Shown: positions 6,592-46,284 of the stretch, piece after piece
Layout of the letters: every line of letters starts with the position of its first letter
How positions within the stretch are numbered: the stretch's first letter is position 1
Assembly: GCA_031275815.1 (NCBI GenBank)
Contig: JAISOF010000009.1
Span: 1 to 46,284 of the forward strand
Length of the DNA stretch: 46,284 nt
Source: Candidatus Nomurabacteria bacterium
GTDB taxonomy: Bacteria; Patescibacteriota; Saccharimonadia; Saccharimonadales; Saccharimonadaceae
Reading direction: 5' to 3'
Program-made: the position numbers and the translations under genes
Notes under the pieces: model-generated
Databases searched by the model: none
Told to the model about the DNA's origin: nothing
Seen by the model: the letters and a program-made list of their open reading frames with translations, nothing else

Positions 6592-8055
6592 ATGGCAACA
6601 CTGAAAGATTATCGCGACGAGCGATTGAGAAAATTGGATGAGCTTAGGAAGGCTGGGATTGACCCCTATCCGGCGAAAAGTTTTCGTGACACAAAAATTG
6701 GGGATATTTTGAAGAATTATGAAACGATGGAGGGTTCTTCAGTGGTCGTGGCGGGGAGGATTGCAAGTATTCGGAGCTTTGGAAAGTTGGCTTTTGTGGT
6801 GGTAGAAGACGATTCGGGCAAGATTCAGCTGTTCTTGAGCGGGGGTGGCAATGAGCGGACGACGGCGAGAAATGATATTTTGGATATCAAGGCTGTGAAG
6901 TTGTTGGACGCGGGTGATTTCATCGAGGCGTATGGCAAGGTGGGCAAGACGAAAACCGGCGAGATTTCGGTGTTGACGGACGGCATGAGGATGTTGACGA
7001 AAACTTTGCGTCCGTTGCCCGGTCGCGATGGTTTCACGAACAAAGAGGAACGCTATCGTCGGCGTTATGTGGACATGGCGGTGAATCCGGAGGTGCGCGA
7101 ACGCATGATTCGGCGGAGCAAGTTCTGGCAAGCCACGCGCGATTTCATGAACGCGCACGGGTTTATTGAAATCAACATCCCGATTTTGGAGCACACCACG
7201 GGCGGTGCGGACGCTGTGCCGTTTGTGACGCATATGGACGCGCTGGATCAGGATTTTTATTTGCGCATCAGCCACGAATTACCTCTGAAACGGTTGTTGG
7301 GCGGCGGGTTCGAAAAGGTTTATGACATTGGCGCGCGCTTTCGTAACGAGGGCGTGGACGACGAGCACCTGCCGGAGCACATTGCTTTTGAGAGTTATGC
7401 GGCTTATGAAAATTACGAAGACGGCATGAAATTATATGAGGCGATGATCAAATACGTTTGCGAACAGACTTGGGGTACTTTGCAGTTCAAGGTGGGGGAG
7501 TTTGAGATTGACCTTGCGCCAAAATGGAAAAAAATCAAATACGCCGACATTATGCAAGAAAAGTTTGGCGTTGACGTGTTTTATCCGGACGACAAACAGC
7601 TGCGGAAGATTTTGAAAGATAATAATGTGGAGCTTTCCGGCGTGGTTGAAACGCCACGACTTTTGGATAATGTGTGGAAACTGGTGCGACGGCAGTCGGC
7701 GGGGCCGTTTTGGTTGATTCACGAGCCGCTCCAGATTTCGCCGCTTGCCAAACAAGAGCCCTCCGACCCGCGCGTCACGCAAAGGTTCCACCCGATTATT
7801 GCGGGAACGGAACTCGGCAACGGTTTTTCTGAGTTGAATGACCCGCTTGACCAATTACGGCGGTTTGAGGAACAGCAAGCCATGCGCGACAAGGGTGATG
7901 GCGAGGCGCAAATGTTGGATATGGATTTTGTGGAAATGTTGGAGTACGGCATGCCACCGGCTTGTGGCTGGGGCAACAGCGAGCGCAACTTTTGGGTGTT
8001 TGAGGGTGTTTCCGCGCGCGAGGGTGTGCCGTTTCCTTTGATGAAAAAACTTTAG
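6592..8055 (+). CDS. lysS: Lysyl-tRNA synthetase, class II
   Basis: 487 aa. Charges tRNA-Lys. An N-terminal OB-fold anticodon-binding domain (about 50-140) is followed by the class II core: motif 1 region RERMIRRSKFWQATRDFM, motif 2 FRNEGVDDEHLPEH, and the GTELGNGFSELNDPLDQLRRFEEQ region. Motif 3 is divergent: instead of GLGIGIDR it reads GWGNSERNFWVF, keeping the arginine, and the protein ends soon after at FPLMKKL. I believe such variants occur in CPR enzymes, though I could not check. The start is fixed by the -10 seven nt upstream. Confidence 0.93.
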   Translation: MATLKDYRDERLRKLDELRKAGIDPYPAKSFRDTKIGDILKNYETMEGSSVVVAGRIASIRSFGKLAFVVVEDDSGKIQLFLSGGGNERTTARNDILDIKAVKLLDAGDFIEAYGKVGKTKTGEISVLTDGMRMLTKTLRPLPGRDGFTNKEERYRRRYVDMAVNPEVRERMIRRSKFWQATRDFMNAHGFIEINIPILEHTTGGADAVPFVTHMDALDQDFYLRISHELPLKRLLGGGFEKVYDIGARFRNEGVDDEHLPEHIAFESYAAYENYEDGMKLYEAMIKYVCEQTWGTLQFKVGEFEIDLAPKWKKIKYADIMQEKFGVDVFYPDDKQLRKILKDNNVELSGVVETPRLLDNVWKLVRRQSAGPFWLIHEPLQISPLAKQEPSDPRVTQRFHPIIAGTELGNGFSELNDPLDQLRRFEEQQAMRDKGDGEAQMLDMDFVEMLEYGMPPACGWGNSERNFWVFEGVSAREGVPFPLMKKL

Positions 8056-32264: not shown

Positions 32265-32676
32265 AACTGAACGGGACATGATTGACTTTGGCAAGGCTTT
32301 CGCGAAAACTCTCTGCCCGCCAAAAACCATTGAACTGATTGGCGACGTGGGTGCCGGAAAGACAACTTTGGTCAAAGGCTTGGCAAAAGGTTTCGGCATT
32401 GACGAAGAAATTACCAGCCCCAGCTTCACCATCAACAAAAAATATTTTGGGAACGGTGTGACGTTGTCGCATTACGATTTTTACCGCCTGAATGACGCGG
32501 GAATCATGCGCGACGAACTCACGGATTTTGACGACAAAACTGTGGTGGTGATTGAGTGGGCGGAAGCAGTGGCGGACGTTTTGCCAAAAGACCGCACGAA
32601 AATTGTAATCGCTTTGAATCCCGATGGCACGCGCGCAGTCAGCGTTCAGAATCGTGGCGCGACTTCCCGCGCATAA
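32248..32676 (+). CDS. tsaE: tRNA threonylcarbamoyladenosine biosynthesis ATPase TsaE
   Basis: 142 aa. Small P-loop ATPase assisting the TsaB-TsaD complex in t6A37 modification. Walker A GDVGAGKT (32-39), the SPSFTI segment (57-62), HYDFYRL (75-81) and VIEWAEAV all fit. It overlaps comEC by 17 nt at its start and the convergent 1569-aa gene by 31 nt at its end, so the last residues are encoded opposite the surface-protein C-terminus. Confidence 0.95.
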   Translation: MKKTIETERDMIDFGKAFAKTLCPPKTIELIGDVGAGKTTLVKGLAKGFGIDEEITSPSFTINKKYFGNGVTLSHYDFYRLNDAGIMRDELTDFDDKTVVVIEWAEAVADVLPKDRTKIVIALNPDGTRAVSVQNRGATSRA

Positions 32677-35600
32677 GTCACAAAAGCTTGAGAATAATTT
32701 TCCACTTGGTGGTACGCCCAAAGATAAGCATCAGCGCGCAGGTTAAAAACTTCGGCGGGGCTGGCGGAGTCATACGGAAACTCACCGGTGCCATACCATT
32801 TGGAGCCGCAGTTGTTGGTGCGGCCACCGTTTGGCCACTGGGCTTGGGCGTTATTGGTGTAGCCAATGCCGTCTTTATAAGCATAATTACAATCCAGCCC
32901 CATGCCCGCGCCATAAGACCGGAGCAGCCTGAGCTTTTTCGCCTGCACGGGGCCGTTGATTTTCAGCGGATAGTTGCAGTCGGTGTACACTTCGTTTACG
33001 GCAATTAGTGTATTTTCATTGATACCTGCTTTATTACATGTATTCACCACTCCATTACCACCCTTCAACCCGACCATCAACCATGCGTCAACTTGCGTAA
33101 CGTGCGGATTAATGTCAATATTTTGCGCGAAAATAATCACTTGTGGAATGTCATGAATACTGGCAAGCGGAGCGCTGGTATAAGTAATGTTGCCGTCAAT
33201 CGTCGCCGTGCCATCAACTTCCACAATCACGGTTTTGCCTTTGTCGATATTTGTTCCGGTGATGGTGGCATTCCCCGACGCGCGATAATAAGTAACCTCG
33301 CCGCTTTTGGGAGTGATGGAACTGCTTGCATTCCAGTCGTCGTAATCCTGTCCTTGCACAGCACCGCCCGCCACGCTGTCAATTTTGGTGCTGTCACCCG
33401 TCACCCATCTGCCAGTCTTGCCGGCAGGCACTTGCACGCGGTTGGTGTAGCGTAAGGTTACCCTCTGCGCCAAACCTCTGAACGCTTGCGATTTGCCCAT
33501 GTCGCTATTGCTGGGGTTTTTGCAATCGCTGGGCTTGTTTTTGATGTTCAGTTTGATAAAGTCGCACCCGTTAATAATGCCCTGATTGGTCACGCCACCC
33601 ACTTCCAAACCTCGCCCAAACGCCGCCGCCGAACCAAAGATTCTGAGCGTGGCGTCGGTGCCAAACCGGCTACTACCAATGGCGTCATACTCGCTCCACG
33701 AGCCAAATGCCTTCCAAGCGTCCAGAAACGGCGCGGGGATTTTCGTGGCATATTTGCCAAGTACTTCGTTTTCAGCATACAGCCCGCCACTCCAGATTTG
33801 CATGGTGGGGATTTTGGAAATGGAAATGCATTCCGGTTTCAAATGTATCCAGTTGCCTTTGACGGCGTCGCCATAAGTGCTGTCGTTGTTGCCATAAAAG
33901 CTGTATTCATCATACACCGAAACACCCACGCAAAACTTGGTGCCGGGTGGCGCGTCGTTGATGGTGGCGGTCAGAACGCTGTGTCCGGTGTCACCGTTTC
34001 TGGCGTCGCCACTGCCGGTGTGGTTGGCGCCGTTGATGGTGTTCAGCGAGCCTGTGCCGGAAGCTTTGGTGTAACAGTTGCGATTGACGTTTTGGATTTG
34101 GTGGTTAGCATGAATGTACGACGAGCAAGGCGCGCTGGTGTCGTGGCGGTCACCGGGGTTGGGATCGGAGGTGACGTTTTCGTCAATATAAAACTCGGTG
34201 ACTTCCCAATGAGTGCCCGGACGGGTCAAAGTGGCATAATTTTCGCCAAACTCGGCATTGCCGACCGCCAAAATGTTGAACCACGTTTGGTAATCCAACT
34301 CCGAACCGCCGTGCAACATCCGCCCAGCCGGAAACTTGGAAGTGTCAATGCGCGGAACGATTTGGTAATTATACGGGATGTGGAACTGGGCATTGGAAGA
34401 AACGGGGCCAGCGTCAACCATGTCCACCCACGTGTGCTCCCACTCGGTGTAAGTGCCAAAACCGTCGGCAGATCCATCATAACACCCGCTACTGCCGCAA
34501 TTTGTGCCGTGCGGGCTGCCATACACCGTCCTGCCGGAGCAACAACAGCCGGAGCAATCGCTACAACAGCCGCTGCGGCAGCTGGAACAAGTGTAGTGCT
34601 TTTCCCATTTTACGTCATATTTGTGTTCGCTGTCTTCACCTGGGCTGGTGGCACTGCCACCGGTATTGGTTTGATACGGCTGTTTGCCTTCGCCAATTTT
34701 GAGGTTCTGCAATTTCTGCGCCACGCGGTCGAACAACGTCGCTCTTTGATAGATTTCTTTGGTGCCAACGTCGCCATTCATCACTTTAGCGACGGCCGAT
34801 TCTTCGTGAAGTTTGCCGTTGCCATCCATGTCGTTGCACTGGTTGCCGACGGCGCCACCTTGCAGGTTATTCAAGAGCCCGCCAGTCGGAGCCTTGATGT
34901 TATGATAACTTATTTTGCCTTGATTCACGGCGTTTGGCGCACTGAACATGGTGCCAATGCCGGTATAAAAACAATCATCGCGCACCGCATAAGTTTTGTT
35001 CGGACCAGCGTCTGTGGCTTTGTATGCGCTCTCGCCTTTTCTGGCTTCGTCTTCACTGTGGCTGCGTTGCACCTGAACTTCAAAAGGCGTCAGCAATCCC
35101 GCGTTTGGAGTGCAATTTCGGTCAGCGGTATCCATGCCGCTTTTGGAGCTATATGTGGTGCTGGTGTGGCACTTGCTCGGTGAAAATCCAGGCAAAGTTT
35201 TCCACGTCGTGTCTTTCGCCAATTTCTGCGCGGCTTTGTCAAAATTGTGCACGAACTTGATGTCGTCCCCCGGACGCGCCAGCTGAGTGATTGCCTCTTT
35301 TTTCGCATTGGGATCCAAAGCCTTGAACTCGTCGGGTTGACCCGGAGCCGGCGGGGCAGTGCCCTCTGGGTCGCATTTGTGCTGGCCAAGTCCGTCATTC
35401 ACAGCGCAAGTCTGGGTTTTGCTGATGGCAATTTCGCTACAGTCCGGCAACGGAGTGTTCGGGTCGTTGTCGCAAGTTTGTGGCGCTCCAGGCGTCGGCT
35501 CGTATGCCGCCACCGCATGCGACGTCACCACCACGCCATCCGTGCCGTTCGCCGCCGTCCACGCCGAGTCGTTCACATTGTGCGCCGTCATGCTGTTTTC

Positions 35601-37355
35601 ACAAGCTGTTTTGGCCGCGCCCGCGTCAGCGCTGATTTCAGATTCTGTGCCATATTTATACTCATAAGCAGTGCTCGTCGCAAAACAGAGGTACAACACG
35701 CTCCGCCAAGCTCCTTTCTTGATTTTGTCATTCTTGATGTCATTGGCACACAAGGCTTTGGCGCCGCCCACACTGGTCGCCGTCGGTGTGCCGGAAGCCA
35801 AGATATCATAAGTCTTGTCTTTTTCCAACACAATGGCGTGCCAGCTGAGCGCTGGAGTCCTTTGCTGGAACCTTGAACCACCGTTAATCCCCGAACCAAT
35901 ACAGCCATTGGAGCTGAAATCAGTTTGGGTATTTTCATTGCTGATGGCATAAAACCACAGTTGTTTCTTGGTTTTGTCGCTTCCAGTGTTGTCGCCACTC
36001 ACCGTCACTGTATGCTTGAAGTTGACATCAATATCCACACACTTGCTGTCATCATTCAACGTCCCGTCGGGGTTCACACAATCGGGCTTGGCGGATATAA
36101 TAGTGGGCGGCCCATCAATCGGATTGCGGCTGCTGGCATTATTGAAAACCGAATCACTGCCAATCCCCACCTTGCCCGCGCAATAATCACCCCAGTTGCA
36201 ACCACTGATAGTGTCGCTAGGCCCGCCGTTTCGATCGACTTTCACATATGACATCACGTTCACTGACCATTTTTGAGCTGTAGCATTGATAATCACTCGC
36301 GCTGAAGAAGTGACCGGATCGCCCTTGTATGGCTTGCCGCCAACACCTTTCACCACACCCGCGCCGAGCGAAGAGTTTTTGTCGGATATGGTGGGGTCGA
36401 TGGTGATGGTTGAGGTGATGGCAATATTTTTCCCAAACGCGTTAATGGCTGCTCTACGGTCGCTTGTCAGCTCAATTTCACACAGATAATTCTGACTCTC
36501 CACGCCACCGCCCGGACCCAAGCCCCAATGCGTCCCCGTCTTGGTGAAACTGCCCATGTTTGGCAGAGCGCCCTCCAAAGACCAGCCCTCGCCAGCCCAC
36601 CAATTGGACGTGGAGTGCGGGCCGCAAGCCGCCGTATCGCCAAACATCTTCACAACTTCCGTGTTCGGGACTGGTTGGTTGAAAGTGCCATTGCCACTAC
36701 CACCATCGTGCATGAAAGACAGTTTTGAAAAGTCAATTTTGATATTACTTTTGGCGTCTTTCCACCGGTCAGAATTGGGATACAAAATCTCATTATTTTT
36801 CTTGGCAACGGCAGCGCTGTGTGTGAAATAAATGTATTTATCGGCTTCCTTGACTGTGGTCTCGGCGTTCCAACTGCCGTCCGGCTGGGTCCGCGTCGAA
36901 TTGGCTTGCGACCACGAACCGGTCTTGATTTCCCAGCCACTCTCCACCGGCGGTTTCGGCGTGTATCTCACGATATTATTGCAATCCGCTTTCACGCCGT
37001 AGCCCGTTTCCTTGCCAGAGGCGTCCAAGTACGCATAAATCTCCACGTTTTTGTCGCTAGCTTTCAAGTTGACATAATAAATCGTACACTTCGGGTCGCT
37101 CCCCCTGTATGCCGTGTTGCCGGTCAAGTCCACTTTGTACGGCAATGGATTCGCCGCCCGTGTATAGCCACGACTATTCACCCAATTGGTCACGGCGGCA
37201 TTGCACGCCACACCGCTGTGCATGTCTTCGCGGTTAGTGCCGTCCTCGAACCCGCCCCACGCGTCCGTTGCGATGACGGTGATGCTCGGTTTTAACACGC
37301 CAAAAGTGCCGCACAGCACAATCGCCAACATAGTTTTTTTGAGTATTTTATTCAT
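32646..37355 (-). CDS. Giant secreted surface protein (1569 aa), full-length fused form
   Basis: Signal peptide (about 1-29: MNKILKKTMLAIVLCGTFG...). Residues about 130-620 match the 543-aa protein at 38097 (SGWEIKTGSW, YFTHSAAVA, YPNSD, FGDTAACG, WWAGEGW, KHTVTVSGDNTGSDKTKKQLW). Residues about 630-1569 match the 1254-aa protein from its residue 270 on (SKTQTCA, LARPGD, TTWKTLPGFS, PVSSNAQFHIPYNY, KIPTMQIWSGGLY, KAFGSWSEYDAIGS, GKTVIVEVDG, TQVDAWLMVGL). A cysteine-dense patch (CCSDCSGCCCSG) lies mid-protein. The C-terminal part has short beta-strand repeats suggesting a beta-helix. Not a known family to me. The start overlaps the TPR gene by 8 nt, with GGAG 8 nt upstream. Likely cell-surface role. 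Confidence 0.88.
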   Translation of the reverse strand: MNKILKKTMLAIVLCGTFGVLKPSITVIATDAWGGFEDGTNREDMHSGVACNAAVTNWVNSRGYTRAANPLPYKVDLTGNTAYRGSDPKCTIYYVNLKASDKNVEIYAYLDASGKETGYGVKADCNNIVRYTPKPPVESGWEIKTGSWSQANSTRTQPDGSWNAETTVKEADKYIYFTHSAAVAKKNNEILYPNSDRWKDAKSNIKIDFSKLSFMHDGGSGNGTFNQPVPNTEVVKMFGDTAACGPHSTSNWWAGEGWSLEGALPNMGSFTKTGTHWGLGPGGGVESQNYLCEIELTSDRRAAINAFGKNIAITSTITIDPTISDKNSSLGAGVVKGVGGKPYKGDPVTSSARVIINATAQKWSVNVMSYVKVDRNGGPSDTISGCNWGDYCAGKVGIGSDSVFNNASSRNPIDGPPTIISAKPDCVNPDGTLNDDSKCVDIDVNFKHTVTVSGDNTGSDKTKKQLWFYAISNENTQTDFSSNGCIGSGINGGSRFQQRTPALSWHAIVLEKDKTYDILASGTPTATSVGGAKALCANDIKNDKIKKGAWRSVLYLCFATSTAYEYKYGTESEISADAGAAKTACENSMTAHNVNDSAWTAANGTDGVVVTSHAVAAYEPTPGAPQTCDNDPNTPLPDCSEIAISKTQTCAVNDGLGQHKCDPEGTAPPAPGQPDEFKALDPNAKKEAITQLARPGDDIKFVHNFDKAAQKLAKDTTWKTLPGFSPSKCHTSTTYSSKSGMDTADRNCTPNAGLLTPFEVQVQRSHSEDEARKGESAYKATDAGPNKTYAVRDDCFYTGIGTMFSAPNAVNQGKISYHNIKAPTGGLLNNLQGGAVGNQCNDMDGNGKLHEESAVAKVMNGDVGTKEIYQRATLFDRVAQKLQNLKIGEGKQPYQTNTGGSATSPGEDSEHKYDVKWEKHYTCSSCRSGCCSDCSGCCCSGRTVYGSPHGTNCGSSGCYDGSADGFGTYTEWEHTWVDMVDAGPVSSNAQFHIPYNYQIVPRIDTSKFPAGRMLHGGSELDYQTWFNILAVGNAEFGENYATLTRPGTHWEVTEFYIDENVTSDPNPGDRHDTSAPCSSYIHANHQIQNVNRNCYTKASGTGSLNTINGANHTGSGDARNGDTGHSVLTATINDAPPGTKFCVGVSVYDEYSFYGNNDSTYGDAVKGNWIHLKPECISISKIPTMQIWSGGLYAENEVLGKYATKIPAPFLDAWKAFGSWSEYDAIGSSRFGTDATLRIFGSAAAFGRGLEVGGVTNQGIINGCDFIKLNIKNKPSDCKNPSNSDMGKSQAFRGLAQRVTLRYTNRVQVPAGKTGRWVTGDSTKIDSVAGGAVQGQDYDDWNASSSITPKSGEVTYYRASGNATITGTNIDKGKTVIVEVDGTATIDGNITYTSAPLASIHDIPQVIIFAQNIDINPHVTQVDAWLMVGLKGGNGVVNTCNKAGINENTLIAVNEVYTDCNYPLKINGPVQAKKLRLLRSYGAGMGLDCNYAYKDGIGYTNNAQAQWPNGGRTNNCGSKWYGTGEFPYDSASPAEVFNLRADAYLWAYHQVENYSQAFVTYAREVAPRF

Positions 37356-37938
37356 GATTTTGCTCCAAATAATTTAGCTTATTCAAATAATAATCGCGCT
37401 CGGTTTGCATACCGATATTGCCCTCAGACGGCTCCGCCAACATCAATTTCAGGTATTTGATTTGCAAATCAGTGTTCGCCGACTTTTCATAAAGCATAAA
37501 CAGCGAACGATAAAACATGTAATCATAATCGACGACATGCAGTTCAATTCCTTTTTCATAGGCCTTGACGGCTTCAGCGATTTTTCCGGCGTTTTCATAA
37601 GACTTTCCTTGCAAGCGGTAGACCTCCGCGCGTTCCTCATCGTTTTTGGCGCGGGAAAGCAGCTGGTTCAATTCGGACACGGTGAAATCAAGGGCGCTTT
37701 CATCATCCACCGCGCTATTGGTTTCCACACCAATGCGGTCAATGGTTTCAGACACCGTTTCGTCGTAACTTGACGTCGCGTTCGGTGCGAAAGCCTTGTC
37801 CGGTTTGACGGCAATCAAAAAAGACACCGCCACTACTCCGCCAAGCACCACCACAATCGCCAAAATAACCAACAAGAAGTTTCGCCGTTTTTTTGTCTGT
37901 TGGTTTTCTTCCCTCTCAAATAATTCCAATATAGCCAT
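37348..37938 (-). CDS. Membrane-anchored TPR-like protein, partner of the 1569-aa surface protein
   Basis: 196 aa. A short cytoplasmic LELFEREENQQTKKRR segment, one membrane helix (about 21-44), an acidic linker, then helical pairs resembling TPR units (ERAEVYRLQGKSYENAGKIAEAVKAYEKGI and following). The second copy at 41644 has the same plan and shares the LFER start. Each copy precedes a giant secreted protein with an identical 8-nt overlap, so the products probably act together, for instance in assembly or retention of the giant. Promoter: TTGCAT-N18-TAATAT with a leaderless ATG. Confidence 0.75.
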   Translation of the reverse strand: MAILELFEREENQQTKKRRNFLLVILAIVVVLGGVVAVSFLIAVKPDKAFAPNATSSYDETVSETIDRIGVETNSAVDDESALDFTVSELNQLLSRAKNDEERAEVYRLQGKSYENAGKIAEAVKAYEKGIELHVVDYDYMFYRSLFMLYEKSANTDLQIKYLKLMLAEPSEGNIGMQTERDYYLNKLNYLEQNHE

Positions 37939-38096
37939 ACAGTCATATTATCATGGTTATATTTAAAAATGCAAGTACATTTTTTTATGAATGTAATTAT
38001 TACATATTTGTAACATGCTATTTTTATTGTTAGTATCTTTTATGAAGTAAAAAATCATTGTTGCATTTTTGATACTGGTTATGTTAATATATCTAC
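37939..38096. promoter_or_regulatory. Divergent promoter region of the surface-protein locus
   Basis: Minus: TTGCAT (complement of 37969-37974), 18-bp spacer, TAATAT (complement of 37945-37950) with a TG extension, 6 nt before the ATG at 37938. Plus: TTGCAT (38061-38066), 18-bp spacer, TAATAT (38085-38090), 6 nt before the ATG at 38097. Both -35 boxes are followed by TTTT. Between them is the perfect palindrome ATGTAATTATTACAT (37991-38005), a possible operator. Confidence 0.65.
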
Positions 38097-39728
38097 ATGG
38101 CTACCGGCGCTACAACATCTCCAGACAAGAGTTCAAAATCCAAAAAGTTTCTTCTGCTTTTTGTGCTGTTGTTTGTTGTTGTCGTTGTTGCCAGCGCGTT
38201 GGTTGCGTTTTTTATTGCTAATGGTTGGTTTGACGATCCGGAAACCCCCAGTGCTGATGTGGCAACTCCAGACGAGGCGGATGATACCAGTGAAGCCGCG
38301 AACAACGTCGAAGGCTGGGCGGTCAAAACTGGCTCGTGGGTGCAAACTACCGCCGGCGGGAATCCGGTGGATGCTGATTGGGAAAAAAGTCGCGAAGTTT
38401 CCCTTGACAACGTTGACACCGTTTATTTCACCCACAGTGCGGCCATAGCCGCGACAAGTGGCAACACCGGATATCCCAATTCTGACGTAGCCAGCGAAGT
38501 CAAGAGCAATATCAAGGTCAATTTCACCTTGGACGTCACCCACGCTGATTCAGGAGGAACGTCGTTCCAGGAGTCCATTTCAAAAGCCAAGTTGCTGGAA
38601 TGGTTCGGCGACACCGCAAATTGCGTATCAACCGCCGAGCAAGCGGACACCGACTGGTGGACGGGCGAAGGTTGGAAAATCGCGGGCACCACATTCCCAG
38701 ACCTCAACACTTTCAAAAAAGACGATTCTGTCCATTATGGCTTGAAACAAACCCCAGACAGCGAAAATAATAATTATTTGTGCAAAATCACCTTTGACGA
38801 CGCCGCCAAAGACAAAATCAGGGCATTCGGCAAAGAAATCACCCTCACCTCCACCATAGCCATCACGCCCAGCGGCGTGGAACTGCAAGACGGCAACAAA
38901 GTAGCAGACCCCAAACCCGCGACCACTTCTGCTAGCATCACCGTCAACCCCTCACCCTATTATTGGCGGGTTTCGGTGAAGAGTTTCGCAATGGTGAAGA
39001 AAACCGGTGGTGGCGAGGCTGAAATGGACTGCATGAACGGCGTTTATTGCGACGGCGGCGCCGGCATTAGTAATAGCAATGACATCTTCAGATACCCTCC
39101 GGATCACGCCTTGACGGTTTCTCCGGCGGCGCCTCCAAGCGGCGAGGCGGGTTGCCCGACCGACCAAACCAAGTGCGTGGAGTTTGAGTTCAATTTCAAA
39201 CACACTGTCACAGTGGCGGACAAAAACACTGGTGAAGACCCGGGCAAAAAGCAACTCTGGCTGTATCGCATCGTCAACTCCTCCTATCCAAACCAAAACG
39301 GGCTGTACAAAGCGGGCGGCTGCCTTGGGCTATTGAACAACGGCTCCATCGCCGGCGCCAAAAACACCTCCGAACAGTGGTACCCAGCGGTGTTGGAAGC
39401 CGGACAAACTTATGACATTGTGACCGGCGTGGCAAACGAAAACACCCCGCTGTGTATCGCTCAAACCGCCATGAAAAACGACCCCACAAAACGTGGCGCA
39501 TGGCAAAGCCGGCTGTATCTGTGTTTCGTGTCCTCAGCCGGATACAAATACGGCTATGGCGACACCGAAACCGATTTGGCAACCGACCTCGAAACCGCCA
39601 AAACCGTCTGCGACGAACACATCCAGTCCGCCAACGCCGACCGAACGTGGGACACCGCCGGTAGCGACGAGGTTTTGGCGACTTCGAATGCGGTGGTGAT
39701 TTATACTACGGCGGTGAAAAAGAAGTGA
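38097..39728 (+). CDS. Membrane-anchored surface protein homologous to the N-terminal part of the 1569-aa protein
   Basis: 543 aa. A cytoplasmic lead (ATGATTSPDKSSKSKK) and one membrane helix (about 18-41), then an ectodomain matching residues about 130-620 of the 1569-aa protein: EGWAVKTGSW, YFTHSAAIA, YPNSD, FGDTAN, WWTGEGW, KHTVTVADKNTGEDPGKKQLW, and the region with KRGAWQSRLYLCF. It stops where the fused protein continues into its second half. So it uses a membrane anchor instead of a signal peptide and lacks the second half, which is encoded separately at 42257. Several cysteines are conserved between the two. Leaderless start. Confidence 0.85.
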   Translation: MATGATTSPDKSSKSKKFLLLFVLLFVVVVVASALVAFFIANGWFDDPETPSADVATPDEADDTSEAANNVEGWAVKTGSWVQTTAGGNPVDADWEKSREVSLDNVDTVYFTHSAAIAATSGNTGYPNSDVASEVKSNIKVNFTLDVTHADSGGTSFQESISKAKLLEWFGDTANCVSTAEQADTDWWTGEGWKIAGTTFPDLNTFKKDDSVHYGLKQTPDSENNNYLCKITFDDAAKDKIRAFGKEITLTSTIAITPSGVELQDGNKVADPKPATTSASITVNPSPYYWRVSVKSFAMVKKTGGGEAEMDCMNGVYCDGGAGISNSNDIFRYPPDHALTVSPAAPPSGEAGCPTDQTKCVEFEFNFKHTVTVADKNTGEDPGKKQLWLYRIVNSSYPNQNGLYKAGGCLGLLNNGSIAGAKNTSEQWYPAVLEAGQTYDIVTGVANENTPLCIAQTAMKNDPTKRGAWQSRLYLCFVSSAGYKYGYGDTETDLATDLETAKTVCDEHIQSANADRTWDTAGSDEVLATSNAVVIYTTAVKKK

Positions 39729-39971
39729 CCTCAAAGAAAAGGTTTTTAAAGCTTATGCTTGTGAAAAAATGACGTTTGTGATATAAATAGGGGTATCAGC
39801 CAGTAACTAGCAACTGGCTAAGTTAGGGCTACGAAACTTAACGCTTCAAAACTAAGCTTTGTGTTTTTGAGAAAGGAAATGCAATGCATCAAGCGTGATG
39901 GTTTTTGCGACAGCCTTAACAACAGTTATGTCTTTTTATACTTATTCCCCGATGAGGAAAGGAGAAAGAAA
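39729..39971 (+). promoter_or_regulatory. Promoter and long structured 5' leader of the SLH gene
   Basis: TTGTGA (39759-39764), a 17-bp spacer and TATAAA with TG extension (39779-39787) predict a leader of about 175 nt. It folds at AGCCAGT/ACTGGCT (39798-39804/39813-39819) and AAGTT/AACTT (39820-39824/39835-39839). I do not recognise a riboswitch class. AAAGGAG stands 7 nt before the ATG at 39972. An in-frame ATG further up (39879) would add a hydrophilic lead before the signal peptide and is less likely. Confidence 0.5.
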
Positions 39972-41534
39972 ATGTTTAAGTTGAAGAAAGGCAAGGGCGT
40001 CGCAAGAGGTCTCCTCGCGGGGATTTTGGCGGCGGTACTCGTTATCACAGGAGCCGGAACGGCATTCGCGGCGGAGGTGCCGCAAATTGGCACGCCGGAG
40101 TACTATGTTTTTATTGATGAAAGCCCGAATTACCAGATGGAGTATGTCGCCGGAGGCAGGGACACGCCGGAATATCGCGCGCTTGTTGAGCGATGGGTGG
40201 AGGCTATGTTGCCAAACATGGAAGATATGAGTTGGTACACCTACCTTCCGAGACAAAATGAAGATATGGTTTGGAAAGCGTTCCACAGCGGAAATCCCAA
40301 TTGGAGCATCATGCGCGATGAGCTTTATCGTTTAGCCAACGAGCTTGATATCACGAACTCTGACCTCTCAACTGAGGAAAAAGTGGCTCGTATTGACACA
40401 TGGGCTGCTGGGGATGGGTACAGAGGCAAGGTTATCGGAAGTATTGATGAAGTTTCAGCCTCCGAACGTCCTTGGGTCGTAACAGAAGGCGGTAAGACCT
40501 ACTTGGCAGGACCGTTTGTAAACCATGCTAGAACGATTGATGGTAAGACATATGATTGCGATCAGCGTGCTGTCGGGCTAGAATGGCTGTATCGCCTAGC
40601 AGGTGTTCCGGCAGTTTTCTTAGCACTAAGTGCTCGCGCGTTACCAGTAGGGCATATGGAAACTATGTACTACCTTAACAATCAATGGTGGGTAAGCGCC
40701 GGTAGGAATTATACTGATGGCAACGCTATGCTTCTTACTGACTATGTAGCAACCTCTGACGTTACCACCGGATATACGTTGGAAGATTGTAGTTTTCCCA
40801 TTGCTGAAATAAGAGTTATGGAAGAACTAGTTTCCATTGATAAAACAACCGGGGAACAAAGTAACTATAATTTCATAAAGGATGTGAACGAATCATGGAT
40901 ACGACCTACTGGTGAAGAGAATTTTATGTTTAAGCTACTTCAAAGCCCGTACGCCCATCCAGAAAAGTCGCTGATGCGCGGTGAGGTTGCTAAGTTATTA
41001 TGCGATTACATCCACATTGTGCCCATGCGTAATGAACAAGTATTTTCCGACGTGCCCACAACTCATCAATATGCGCCTTACATCTGGGTAATGAGCCGAC
41101 TGGGATTGATGACCGGTGATGATAACGGAAACTTTAATCCGGACAGCGGGCTTTCCATGCAGGAGTTCGCGGTGATTGCCAATCGCGTCGTGGAATACGT
41201 AAGGCAGCTTGTCAAAGGCGTTGACAAGTCAAGATGGGGAGGAACTTCTCCGGGCAAGATTGGCATCATATTGTCCAAGCTTGAAGCGCCCTCCGGTCAG
41301 TCCAAAACTTTTGCAGACGCGAAACAAATCGCGTCTTGGGCGAAGCCGGCGATTGACGAGTTTTCCAAATACGGTATATTGGTGGGTGATGGCAACGGTT
41401 ATCTCAAGCCCACCGAAACCTTAAGCCGCCTGCGGTTCTTGGTGTTTTTGTCAAAGATGGATGATCGGTTTGAGGCTATAGGAGGGGAAGGAGTGTTCAA
41501 TGGCGTCATAGCTACGCCCAGGCCTTTGTTCTGA
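39972..41534 (+). CDS. Secreted transglutaminase-like protein with SLH domains
   Basis: 520 aa. A classical signal peptide ends AGTAFAAEV. The central domain has a transglutaminase-like core: cysteine in KTYDCDQRAVGLEWLYRLAGVP, histidine in PVGHMETMYYLNNQWW, and a possible aspartate in YTDGNAM. The C-terminal half holds SLH repeats: FSDVPTTHQYAPYIWVMSRLG with MTGDDNGNFNPDSGLSMQEF, and FADAKQIASWAKPAIDEFSKYG with VGDGNGYLKPTETLSRL; an earlier unit from LMRGEVAKLL is partial. SLH domains bind wall polymers or S-layers; the TG-like domain could be a peptidase or crosslinker. Style of signal, SD and terminator is Firmicutes-like and unlike its neighbours, hinting at transfer. Confidence 0.82.
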   Translation: MFKLKKGKGVARGLLAGILAAVLVITGAGTAFAAEVPQIGTPEYYVFIDESPNYQMEYVAGGRDTPEYRALVERWVEAMLPNMEDMSWYTYLPRQNEDMVWKAFHSGNPNWSIMRDELYRLANELDITNSDLSTEEKVARIDTWAAGDGYRGKVIGSIDEVSASERPWVVTEGGKTYLAGPFVNHARTIDGKTYDCDQRAVGLEWLYRLAGVPAVFLALSARALPVGHMETMYYLNNQWWVSAGRNYTDGNAMLLTDYVATSDVTTGYTLEDCSFPIAEIRVMEELVSIDKTTGEQSNYNFIKDVNESWIRPTGEENFMFKLLQSPYAHPEKSLMRGEVAKLLCDYIHIVPMRNEQVFSDVPTTHQYAPYIWVMSRLGLMTGDDNGNFNPDSGLSMQEFAVIANRVVEYVRQLVKGVDKSRWGGTSPGKIGIILSKLEAPSGQSKTFADAKQIASWAKPAIDEFSKYGILVGDGNGYLKPTETLSRLRFLVFLSKMDDRFEAIGGEGVFNGVIATPRPLF

Positions 41535-41547
41535 GTTTTTTGAAGCG

Positions 41548-41586
41548 CTAACCCCCGTTTTAATAACGGGGGTTAGTTATTTTTTT
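41548..41586 (+). terminator. Intrinsic terminator of the SLH gene
   Basis: CTAACCCCCGTT (41548-41559) pairs perfectly with AACGGGGGTTAG (41565-41576) around a 5-nt loop and is followed by TTATTTTTTT. It is the only textbook terminator in the window. Confidence 0.95.
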
Positions 41587-41607
41587 ATAATTTCGTATGA
41601 AAAAACA

Positions 41608-41637
41608 TTGCATTTTTTAGCATGAGTGTTATATACT
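41608..41637 (+). promoter_or_regulatory. Promoter of the second TPR/giant operon
   Basis: TTGCAT (41608-41613, followed by TTTT), an 18-bp spacer and TATACT (41632-41637), 6 nt before the ATG at 41644. Same -35 decamer and spacing as the two promoters at 37939-38096. Confidence 0.65.
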
Positions 41638-41643
41638 TTAATC

Positions 41644-42264
41644 ATGGCTACGAACAACGAACAACCAAACCTGTTTGAACGAGGAGCGGTTCAGACAGCA
41701 AGAAAGAAAAAAATTATGATTAGCTCCTTGATAATTGTGGCAGTAGCAGTTTTGGCTACTGTTTCGTATTTTATGCTCACGGCAAATCGCGAAAAACCGG
41801 TGACAGAAGAGCTAGCGACACAGACAAAAGAAGAGGTGGCGATGGAAATGAAAGGTCTTGAAGCCAGTGCTAATAGTGTGAGTTCAGAGGAAGAATCTGA
41901 TAAAATCATCGAACGGACTGACGAAATACTGGAACAGACTAGCGACTTGGAGCAAAAATTCAAGTTATTTGTCATACAGGCCCAGACTTATAGTATGTCT
42001 AAGCAGTACGATCAGGCCGTAGCCGTTTTTGAATCTATGCTCGACATGCCGGACTGGTCGGAAGAGCAACGTTTGAGGATTTATGTAATGTTGGCTGAAA
42101 CGTATAGGTATGAAGTGAGAGATATACAACAATTCCGGAAATACATAGAATTGATAGAAAATAGTAGCGCATTGGTCACAGACAGAGAAAGTGAGGATTT
42201 TGTAAATGTGGACTATTATAAAAAACAGCTAAAGATACAAGAAGAGGAGGCTGCTAATGAATAA
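41644..42264 (+). CDS. Membrane-anchored TPR-like protein, partner of the 1254-aa surface protein
   Basis: 206 aa. Cytoplasmic NLFERGAVQTARKKK, one membrane helix (about 23-45), an acidic coiled segment, then TPR-like helices (KFKLFVIQAQTYSMSKQYDQAVAVFESML and following). Same design as the 196-aa protein at 37348-37938, though the sequence similarity outside the LFER start is low. Its last 8 nt (ATGAATAA) contain the start codon of the next gene, exactly as in the other copy. Translational coupling is likely. Confidence 0.75.
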   Translation: MATNNEQPNLFERGAVQTARKKKIMISSLIIVAVAVLATVSYFMLTANREKPVTEELATQTKEEVAMEMKGLEASANSVSSEEESDKIIERTDEILEQTSDLEQKFKLFVIQAQTYSMSKQYDQAVAVFESMLDMPDWSEEQRLRIYVMLAETYRYEVRDIQQFRKYIELIENSSALVTDRESEDFVNVDYYKKQLKIQEEEAANE

Positions 42265-45200
42265 TATGCTCAAACGTTTGAGTTTATGTATTGCGCCACT
42301 TTTGGCGATGGTTGTTTGTATATGTCTTACGCCAACTGATACACATGCCGCTGGCGCTACTATTGGTGAGGATTGTGGTATCTATGGATATACTGATGAT
42401 CAAGCAAGAGACATAGCGATACAAAGTATATTAGCTTATTTGCAGATTGCCCGCCCCGGCGTAAGCATAACATTGGATGAAACCGAAACGTCGACTATAC
42501 TCACGAAAAATTCTTGGTTCACAAGTAATAGTGCTTACTTCCAAGCCAACTACATGGTCCCAAATCCGTATGAGCTTTTTGATCATATTTGGTATGGCAC
42601 AGGGGGTATGGCTACTTATCCGGGCGGCTGGGTTAGCGGTAGTTATTTTAATAATACCACAAAAATATGCTTTGCCGTTATGAATAATAAAGACGCTCCT
42701 TCCGGTGTAGATTACTTTAATGCACTTCTCACGGACAGTTCTAGAGATGTGGGCCTTAAGGTAGGCGTGAGGCATATTAGGTTTGACGGTGTGGATAGTG
42801 GGTTTGGGTTTAAGCACGGTTGTTATAATTTAGTAGAATACTTAGTGACGTGTGATATTGAACCCGGCAATGGCATTCCAGATTGTGAGTGTACGAATGA
42901 CCCAAATAATCTTGACCCTCTAAAAGCTTATTATGTCGGCCCAGAGGATACTATTGAAGATAACGGTGTGCCAGACGGTAATTGCTATATACCCCCACCA
43001 GATCCCGAACCTGTCGAACAAGAAGTCAAAATAGAATGGAGCAAAACCCAAACCTGTGCCATCAATGAAACGATGGAAAAGTGGGCGTGCGACCCGAAAG
43101 ACACCACCCCAGACAATCCTGAACCAGACACTTTCCAAGCCCTCAGTGATGAAGCTAACAGCGGCGACCCACACGGTGTGCCAACCCAACTTGCGCGGCC
43201 AGGCGACAGAATCTTATTTGGTCATTACTATGACAAGGCTGCCCAAAAGTTAGCAGCGGAAACGACTTGGGTGTCCCTGCCGGGTTTCAGCGCCACCAAA
43301 TGCAAAACCGATAACGCACATTATATTGGTGCAAATATGCCAAACACTTCAAGTGACTGTCGCCCACTTAATAATACGATTGGCAGTTTCAAAGCCTCCG
43401 ACGGCGACTCCAGCACCAGTGAAAAAATGGAGGAAACAATCCCCCACTCTCATGCCAACGCTGATGATCTTGCCGGAACTGGTGGCGCTGGCGGTTATAA
43501 AGTCCTTGATGTCGCTGACAGTTGTTATTATAATTACGACGGCAAAGGCAGTAGTACCCCAGATTGGAAAAATATCAGCATAGCCAACCTGTCCGAGCTG
43601 ACTACATTCGGCGGCAACCCTCCGGCTTTGGACACATTGAGCACTGTTGCACCTTGTTCTAATAATAATGGCACTTTGGATATGGCGTATTTGGAAAGTA
43701 CCGTCAGTGCGAAAACGAATCCAGTTAAGCGAACTGATGTTGGCTCGAAAGCTATTTATCAAAAAACAACGCTCTATGACCGCGTGGCGGAAATGCTCAA
43801 AAACCAAAAACAGGGTGAAGGCGTTGTTGAATATCCAAGTACTGGTCAAAAAGAGGTGTCGAGTATGGTTACTGCTGGTACTGGCGAAGACAATCAGCAT
43901 GTGATGAAAGTGGAATGGAGAAACCAGCGTAGCTACACCAATAATGCTCCAGCTTATGATTGCGATTGTTGTGGCAGCTGCACTGGCACATGTCAAGGTG
44001 GCGATTGCAATGGCGGTTGTGGTTGTGGAGCTTATAAGGAGGGTACTTGGGATGGCAAAGGCTCCTATATTGAATACGAACACACTTGGGTAAAAATGGT
44101 CAACGACGGTCCCGTATCTTCCAACGCCCAATTCAACATACCATACAACTATAAGCTGACTCCGTTTATTGACACTCAGTACTTCCCGCCCTATCGCATG
44201 ATACCTGGCGGCACGGAAATTGATTATTCCACTTGGGTTAGTGTGGACGCTGTAAAAAACGAAGAGTTTTCCAAGGCGCCGCAAAACTACACTGAATCTT
44301 ACGCCACAATTACTCGACCGGAAACTACATGGAAAGTCACAGAGTTTTATATCAGCGAAAACCAGATTACAGACCCCAACCCAGGTACTGTATATGATAT
44401 GCACGACAAAAGCTACAACCCCTGCTCTACATACGTCCACGCCTCGTCTGGGATTCAAAATGTCAATGTCGCGGATTATTGTAAGATAGTCGCACAAAGT
44501 ACTGGTCCACTCAATGATGATGACGATCGGTTTGCCAAATCTCAAGATGCATATACTCCTTTGACGGCAGTAATCGCCGATGTGCCTGCGGGCACCAAGT
44601 TCTGTGTTGGTCTGTCTGTAATGGACTACGCCAGTTATGACTTTAACAATGAGTTTGGTGGTGGCGATGACGAACAAACCTATGGAGACCCTGTGCACAA
44701 CTGGTGGATGCACTTGAAACCGGAATGTATTTCCGTTTCCAAAATCCCCACCATGCAAGTTTGGGGTGGCGGGTTGTACTCAGAAAGTAATGTGTTGGGA
44801 AAGTACGCTATCAAAAAAGCTGCGCTAACTGGAAGTTGGAAAGCTTTCGGATCTTGGAGCGAATACGATGCGATTGGTAGCATTCTTTATAGTGCTGACG
44901 CTACTATCAAGCTGTTCGGCTCTGCCGCAGCGCTCGGTCGGGGATTGGATCTTGTCAGCAATATCTCCAATGTCGGTTCTGGGGGCAGCATTAGTAATGG
45001 TTGTGCTTTCACAAAACTACACATCGCAAACACCACAAACTTCATCAGTGATGCATTGTGCCACACTCCAGAATCTGCGAAGACTGGCAGTTCGAGCGCT
45101 TTCAAAGGTTTGGCTCAGAGGGTAGCATTGCGTTACACCAATCGCGTGAAAGTCCCGTCAGACAAGGTTGGCAGATGGGTGACTGGTAGCACCACCAAAA

Positions 45201-46021
45201 TTGATGATATTAATACGATAGGTGAAGAGGCTCAAAAAGGTTCTGATTATGACGATTGGGACGCCAACAGCAAGGTCGAACCAAAGAGCGGTGAAATAAC
45301 ATACTATCGAGCTTCTGGAAACGCTACTATTAAGAGCACAAATGTCGGCAAAGGCAAGACGGTGATTGTGGAAGTCAACGGCACTGCTCGAATTGATGGA
45401 AATATCACTTACACTGATGCCTTATTGGAAAGTATTTACGAAATCCCCCAAGTTATTATTTTTGCTGATAATGTTGACATTGCGCCAAGTGTCACCCAGG
45501 TTGACGCGTGGTTGATGGTGGGGCTAAATGGCGGTAGTGGCATCATCAACACTTGCGCTAATGGAATCGTGGCTTTTGAGGGCGATGACAATAGCTTAAT
45601 TGCTTCAAACGGGGGCGATGTTTTCGGCGACTCAAGCGTGGTCGGCAAAGGCAACGGATCGTTAAGCGAGCACTGTCGTACCCGCTTGAAGATTAATGGC
45701 CCAGTGCAAGCCAAAAAGCTCAAATTGTTGCGTTCTTATGGCGCTGGCATGGGGTTGCAGTGCAACTATGATTATAAAGATAAGAATACGATTAATGGTA
45801 CTACTTATACCAGTAACGACCAAGCTCAGTGGCCGAATGGCGGTCGCACTAGCAACTGTGGCTCCAAATGGTATGGCACCGGCGAGTTTTCTTATGACTC
45901 TGCGACTCCCGCCGAAGTCTTCAACCTCCGCGCCGACGCCTATCTCTGGGCATACAAACAAGTCGAGAACTATTCCCAAGCCTTCGTGACCTATTCAAGG
46001 GAGGTGGCGCCGAGGTATTAA
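42257..46021 (+). CDS. Giant secreted surface protein (1254 aa), second-half form
   Basis: Signal peptide (about 1-31, ending near THAAG). Residues about 32-255 are unique: a domain with GIYGYTDDQARDIA and several cysteines, then a CECTND segment. From residue about 270 (WSKTQTCAINE) to the end it follows the second half of the 1569-aa protein: LARPGDRILFGHYYDKAAQKL, TTWVSLPGFS, a cysteine-rich patch (CDCCGSCTGTCQGGDC), PVSSNAQFNIPYNY, KIPTMQVWGGGLY, KAFGSWSEYDAIGS, GKTVIVEVNG, TQVDAWLMVGL, and the end VTYSREVAPRY. GAGGAGG lies about 7 nt before the ATG. A further gene starts 10 nt after the stop. Not a known family to me. Confidence 0.88.
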   Translation: MNNMLKRLSLCIAPLLAMVVCICLTPTDTHAAGATIGEDCGIYGYTDDQARDIAIQSILAYLQIARPGVSITLDETETSTILTKNSWFTSNSAYFQANYMVPNPYELFDHIWYGTGGMATYPGGWVSGSYFNNTTKICFAVMNNKDAPSGVDYFNALLTDSSRDVGLKVGVRHIRFDGVDSGFGFKHGCYNLVEYLVTCDIEPGNGIPDCECTNDPNNLDPLKAYYVGPEDTIEDNGVPDGNCYIPPPDPEPVEQEVKIEWSKTQTCAINETMEKWACDPKDTTPDNPEPDTFQALSDEANSGDPHGVPTQLARPGDRILFGHYYDKAAQKLAAETTWVSLPGFSATKCKTDNAHYIGANMPNTSSDCRPLNNTIGSFKASDGDSSTSEKMEETIPHSHANADDLAGTGGAGGYKVLDVADSCYYNYDGKGSSTPDWKNISIANLSELTTFGGNPPALDTLSTVAPCSNNNGTLDMAYLESTVSAKTNPVKRTDVGSKAIYQKTTLYDRVAEMLKNQKQGEGVVEYPSTGQKEVSSMVTAGTGEDNQHVMKVEWRNQRSYTNNAPAYDCDCCGSCTGTCQGGDCNGGCGCGAYKEGTWDGKGSYIEYEHTWVKMVNDGPVSSNAQFNIPYNYKLTPFIDTQYFPPYRMIPGGTEIDYSTWVSVDAVKNEEFSKAPQNYTESYATITRPETTWKVTEFYISENQITDPNPGTVYDMHDKSYNPCSTYVHASSGIQNVNVADYCKIVAQSTGPLNDDDDRFAKSQDAYTPLTAVIADVPAGTKFCVGLSVMDYASYDFNNEFGGGDDEQTYGDPVHNWWMHLKPECISVSKIPTMQVWGGGLYSESNVLGKYAIKKAALTGSWKAFGSWSEYDAIGSILYSADATIKLFGSAAALGRGLDLVSNISNVGSGGSISNGCAFTKLHIANTTNFISDALCHTPESAKTGSSSAFKGLAQRVALRYTNRVKVPSDKVGRWVTGSTTKIDDINTIGEEAQKGSDYDDWDANSKVEPKSGEITYYRASGNATIKSTNVGKGKTVIVEVNGTARIDGNITYTDALLESIYEIPQVIIFADNVDIAPSVTQVDAWLMVGLNGGSGIINTCANGIVAFEGDDNSLIASNGGDVFGDSSVVGKGNGSLSEHCRTRLKINGPVQAKKLKLLRSYGAGMGLQCNYDYKDKNTINGTTYTSNDQAQWPNGGRTSNCGSKWYGTGEFSYDSATPAEVFNLRADAYLWAYKQVENYSQAFVTYSREVAPRY

Positions 46022-46031
46022 ACAGGTTTGC

Positions 46032-46284
46032 ATGAATAAGAAAATTATATTTATGATAGTGCTGTTTGGGGGTCTTGCTAGTGGCGCAATTTGGTTGTAT
46101 TTTAATTTGGTTGGGTTCAAAATCAATAGCGCTCCAAAAACTGAGCCAGAAATTGCCTCTTGTGGCTACACCAACGCGCAAGCAACGTCGGACTACACTT
46201 TCGACATCAACTCCATCCCCGTTGTCAACCTGCAAATCGACGTGGCAAAAGACGCAATTGTGGAAGAATACATCGAGGGACTGA
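46032..46284 (+). CDS. Signal-anchored protein, incomplete at the window edge
   Basis: At least 84 codons, still open at the end. It starts MNKKIIFMIVLFGGLASG, a signal peptide or anchor, then an ectodomain with SCGYTNAQATSDYTFDI. It begins 10 nt after the stop of the 1254-aa gene, so it is the third gene of that operon. The minus-strand operon has no counterpart at this place, since tsaE follows there. Function unknown. Confidence 0.7.
   Translation, partial: MNKKIIFMIVLFGGLASGAIWLYFNLVGFKINSAPKTEPEIASCGYTNAQATSDYTFDINSIPVVNLQIDVAKDAIVEEYIEGL

Follow-up and report, generated by a model that had tools for sequence, protein, structure and literature searches.

The analyzed window is a 46,284-nt stretch of contig JAISOF010000009.1 (assembly GCA_031275815.1), from a bacterium of the Saccharibacteria type. 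Its last third encodes two related giant surface proteins in back-to-back gene clusters. On the minus strand, a 1569-aa giant (32646–37355) consists of a signal peptide and N-terminal domain (36939–37355), an internal head module (35502–36938) and a core ending in TYAREVAPRF (32649–35474). It is preceded by a 196-aa membrane-anchored TPR-like protein (37348–37938, minus strand; TPR_2 E = 6e-5, below the cut-off), which overlaps its start by 8 nt, likely as a coupled operon. On the plus strand lies a 543-aa stand-alone head protein (38097–39728) with a cytosolic tail, a membrane helix and the head module (residues 73–536). It is followed by a 520-aa secreted protein with a signal peptide, a possible transglutaminase-like region and two SLH domains (39972–41534; SLH domains at 41043–41171 and 41307–41429). 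A hairpin and T run resembling an intrinsic terminator (41549–41588, plus strand) separates this gene from the next operon. That operon encodes a 206-aa membrane-anchored TPR-like protein (41644–42264, plus strand) and, overlapping it by 8 nt, a head-less 1254-aa giant (42257–46021, plus strand) with a signal peptide, an N-terminal domain, a linker keeping a C..NDPN-type motif, and a core ending in TYSREVAPRY. A further membrane or secreted ORF (46032–46283, plus strand) starts 10 nt after the giant's stop and is cut by the contig end; it is a possible operon member.

The three transcription units share a promoter box. TTGCATTTTT occurs exactly 26 nt before the ATG of the 196-aa gene (37965–37974, minus strand), the 543-aa gene (38061–38070, plus strand) and the 206-aa gene (41608–41617, plus strand). 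The box occurs 19 times in the 1.07-Mb genome, and only one other copy has an ATG at that distance. The SLH gene lacks it. We infer one shared promoter type with very short leaders, and co-regulation of the head and both giants.

Homology between the fused and split forms

A preliminary description made from the sequence alone held that the 1569-aa protein equals the 543-aa protein joined to most of the 1254-aa protein, and we confirm that these proteins exist and are related in this way, with two corrections. Residues 140–618 of the 1569-aa protein match residues 73–536 of the 543-aa protein (37% identity over 491 aa, E = 5e-83). Residues 628–1569 match residues 243–1254 of the 1254-aa protein (52% over 1028 aa, E = 0), with 71% identity over the last ~390 aa. 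The 543-aa and 1254-aa proteins do not match each other. The described change in anchoring also holds: the 543-aa protein has a hydrophobic helix at residues 18–36 after a basic N-terminus, and both giants have signal-peptide-like N-termini.

The first correction is that the fused protein is not an end-to-end fusion. Its first ~139 aa form an N-terminal domain of its own, which the 543-aa protein lacks. This domain is also present in sister giants (42% identity to the copy on contig C39 of this genome, 37% to a giant of another genus) and is weakly similar to the N-terminus of the 1254-aa protein (E = 0.001 in a small comparison). The ~480-aa head is therefore an internal module between the N-terminal domain and the core, not an N-terminal half. 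The second is that the locus also holds the two membrane-anchored TPR-like genes, one before each giant, and the SLH protein.

The preliminary description had named two outcomes that would overturn it: similarity of composition only, or a misjoined duplicate. Neither was found. The matches extend over hundreds of residues, the arms are only 67–77% identical in DNA, in patches, and differ in gene order, and further diverged copies lie on other contigs. Although the assembly is fragmented, we reject both alternatives; this is an old duplication.

The interpretation offered in the preliminary description, a duplicated system that underwent fusion or fission and whose halves form a complex, is partly supported. 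True homology, duplication followed by fusion or fission, the lack of a Pfam or NCBIfam family for the giants, and an origin in Patescibacteria (Saccharibacteria) are supported. That the halves act together is made more likely by the shared promoter box, but a physical complex was not tested. The two forms are not a lone pair, and the family is not isolated.

Sister cassettes, probable fission and the wider family

The genome contains at least five such cassettes. Further giants lie on contigs C20 (1604 aa from the first start listed; open frame 1643), C31 (1682 aa) and C39 (cut at the contig end; a fragment on contig C29 may be its end). C31 and C39 have the order secreted SLH or transglutaminase-like protein, membrane-anchored TPR-like protein, giant with internal head. 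C20 has a transglutaminase-like protein with Cu_amine_oxidN1 domains and a different membrane-anchored N-terminus fused to the giant. The head occurs in four proteins of this genome (the fused giant, the 543-aa protein and the C31 and C39 giants) and in none of 244 other genomes of the taxonomic family.

Phylogenies of both halves, proposed beforehand as a check, do not settle the direction of change. The five giants of this genome form one clade (support 100/99). The 1254-aa giant groups with the head-bearing fused and C39 giants (90/88), and head-bearing C31 lies outside, which makes loss of the head from the 1254-aa chain the simpler story. The linker of the 1254-aa giant also keeps a ‘PG..P.C..NDPN.L’ stretch found right after the head in the fused and C39 giants, and no separate head gene is known elsewhere. 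However, topology tests do not reject the 1254-aa giant as first branch (AU p = 0.15), the head quartet does not separate the options (AU p 0.58 versus 0.48), and the core order of C31, C20 and the 1254-aa giant was not resolved. Giants of the nearest other genus lack the head, as expected if head and stalk were separate first and were fused more than once, or once before duplication, so that the 543-aa/1254-aa pair would be ancestral. We consider that alternative possible but the less likely; fission of a fused ancestor is favored, not proven.

A profile of the giants matches 189 of 245 genomes of the taxonomic family, mostly over the C-terminal part. A first scan of named genomes with this genome's own giants found nothing, but a scan with an alignment of the C-terminal 560 residues of relatives gave 64 loci, nearly all labelled Ca. 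Saccharibacteria; many isolate names point to ruminant guts. The closest giants are those of isolates Th196P3bin140, Hm464_bin166, Emb289P1bin101 and Th196P3bin64; such codes denote termite-gut samples. Of 63 loci with sequence downstream, 27 giants are directly followed by minor-pilin-like genes, 13 by pilM-N-O-B-T-C-D, and 23 are not directly followed by pilus genes. A small membrane protein stands just upstream in 43 of 54, as it does for both giants of the window. We define a grouping of saccharibacterial pilus-linked giants by a conserved C-terminal ~560 aa ending [RK]E[VL]APR[YF], which the window's giants share. In their own genome, the pilus operon is complete on contig C41 but holds no giant, and the giants are not beside pilus genes.

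Proposed role as pilus-linked adhesins

The giants recall the PilY1/PilC tip adhesins of type IV pili (Pseudomonas, Neisseria, Myxococcus), which are very large secreted proteins encoded with minor pilins. Two pilus-locus homologues, on extracted stretches L209 and L220, have an N-terminal vWA domain (E = 2e-7 and 2e-14), a hallmark of PilY1; the window's giants lack it. They also have no match at E ≤ 1 to the C-terminal PilY1 domain (T4P_PilY1, PF05567) and are not encoded with minor pilins. PF05567 was not found in this or 60 related genomes, but the control genomes gave no match either, so absence from the genomes is not proven. The giants instead have a conserved beta-rich C-terminus ending APR[YF] and a separate TPR-like membrane partner, and here are unlinked from the pilus operon and multiplied. 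In Nanosynbacter lyticus TM7x, pili bind the host, and the pilus-associated proteins PilX1 and PilX2 are described as minor pilins with an N-terminal pilin helix and extra C-terminal domains; PilX2 promotes host binding and was compared with PilY1 (PMC12206443). TM7x sequences were not compared here. The related loci carry a separate PilX-like minor pilin next to the giant.

Structure gives little further guidance. No PDB sequence relatives of the core or head were found. The core model (mean pLDDT 57) shows a common Ig/CARDB-like sandwich around model residues 376–575 (Z about 7), which is not diagnostic, and a further well-predicted beta region near the C-terminus. PilY1 was not among the structural matches listed, which shows nothing either way. 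The head model, built from two sequences only, was too weak to search with (mean pLDDT 49); sister copies from other contigs were not included in the alignments. Neither model identifies a known family.

Our preferred explanation, held with moderate confidence, is that the giants are pilus-linked, probably tip, adhesins that have left the pilus operon and multiplied. The analysis itself establishes the homology, the modular head, the cassette family, the pilus linkage in relatives, the shared promoter box and the GA tracts in sister cassettes described below; pilus-tip adhesion, the head–stalk complex, switching and action at a host wall are inferences from these. In this view, the conserved C-terminus docks the giant to the pilus machinery or tip, the variable N-terminal head contacts the partner (host) cell, and the small TPR-like protein holds or hands over the giant at the membrane. 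The head would be a detachable module, built into the chain in the fused giant and two sister giants but, probably after excision from a fused ancestor, membrane-anchored and separately encoded beside the 1254-aa giant, with which it likely works. Neither location at the tip nor priming of pilus assembly was examined, and the host target is inferred.

Two other roles are considered unlikely. The giants could be S-layer-like or wall-bound structural or adhesive envelope proteins that happen to be transcribed with pilus genes in relatives but have no pilus role. Their signal peptides, many cysteines and beta-rich folds, the neighboring SLH protein, and the distance from pilus genes in this genome and its nearest relatives are consistent with this. 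However, linkage to two different kinds of pilus cluster in 40 of 63 loci is hard to get by chance, and some homologues have PilY1-like vWA heads. Less likely still, the giants could be exoproteins secreted through the type IV pilus/type II-like machinery, with the TPR-like protein as a chaperone. Pilus linkage, secreted enzyme-like neighbors and a conserved C-terminal motif that could be an export or sorting signal would fit, but signal peptides already explain membrane crossing in a single-membrane cell, and no catalytic domain was recognised in the giants.

The 520-aa protein is Bacillota-like and exceeds the curated cut-off for SLH domains (PF00395, E = 1.4e-15, two stretches), and its nearest solved chain is the Bacillota S-layer protein Sap. 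Among 61 genomes, SLH domains were found in this one only. The usual SLH ligand is made by the pyruvyl transferase CsaB (PF04230), which was not found in this genome, although the control search gave matches in 8 genomes; the assembly (43 contigs) is 93% complete, so missing genes are uncertain. Whether the protein belongs to the transglutaminase-like superfamily was left undecided: it has no match to PF01841, a TYDC motif and a later H are conserved in three paralogues, and the C20 counterpart scores 21.2 bits against a cut-off of 23. In related genomes, secreted proteins with Cu_amine_oxidN1, CAP or SLH domains stand beside giants (L213:2784–4322, L205:5209–6579, L230:4–727), suggesting a recurring exchangeable, Bacillota-like slot. 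We infer acquisition from Bacillota and action on, or binding to, a partner's wall, which is the weakest step.

How Patescibacteria recognize and hold their host cells is an open question. This family has no Pfam or NCBIfam model, sits at the head of pilus gene clusters across Saccharibacteria, and is a concrete, testable candidate for the pilus-borne host-binding protein. The split and fused forms side by side give a natural dissection of head and stalk. A bolder reading, which we consider doubtful, is that a Saccharibacterium keeps a switchable wardrobe of such adhesins outside the pilus operon, several of them phase-variable through GA tracts, with a head built in or supplied as a separate membrane protein, and deploys them with acquired SLH/transglutaminase-like proteins aimed at the host cell wall.

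Dinucleotide tracts and predicted phase variation

Three sister cassettes carry GA tracts at the operon start. C31 and C39 have (GA)19 and (GA)22 within the first codons of the membrane-anchored TPR-like gene, in frame; C20 has (GA)16 out of frame with its giant. The window's cassettes have none. All 31 dinucleotide tracts of six or more copies in the genome are GA/CT, and none lies in the window. Of 61 related genomes, 54 have no (GA)10 at all. The tracts at the operon starts predict random on/off switching, a way for an epibiont to diversify host contact, but from one assembly, in which tract lengths are uncertain; variation between cells was not measured. The arrangement resembles the simple-repeat contingency loci of Haemophilus, Neisseria and Campylobacter in having long repeats in the first codons of surface-protein operons, both in and out of frame in one genome. 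It differs in being exclusively GA/CT and in the shared leader ATGCGATTAGCC(AG)n. Searches of the available literature for phase variation in Patescibacteria or Saccharibacteria gave no relevant paper. In another genus, a GA tract (L127:4875–4897, contig C12 of genome G004 of the same family) precedes a 1714-aa ORF carrying the giant C-terminal match, so the predicted phase variation of giants is not limited to one genome.

Genome-wide, GA/CT tracts of 8–33 copies, many behind the leader ATGCGATTAGCC, stand at the start of about 14 surface-type ORFs of 650–1720 aa, about 6 in frame and 8 out of frame by our reading. Examples are C1:8083–8130 (L053), C17:2321–2355 (L069), C20:43604–43639 (L091:15604–15639) and C33:59384–59416 (L112:19384–19416). 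This looks like a large phase-variable repertoire. Poly-G/C tracts of 13–15 bases (C38:6763–6776 and 7026–7040, C35:12422–12434), whose context was not examined, are possible further switching sites. About half of the GA tracts are not followed by a long ORF (e.g. C33:22845–22889 (L111), C25:4121–4157 (L076) and C24:77797–77820 (L106)). Most of these follow an ...CC and several are followed by a copy of TTGTAATTTTTACAACA; they have no known role and are possibly a mobile repeat or untranslated element. One GA-led ORF of 961 aa on C33 (L113:3482–6364, plus strand) has Chlamydia polymorphic-membrane-protein repeats (E = 7e-19) and a Listeria-Bacteroides repeat, and its reading frame is out of phase with its ATG in the assembly.
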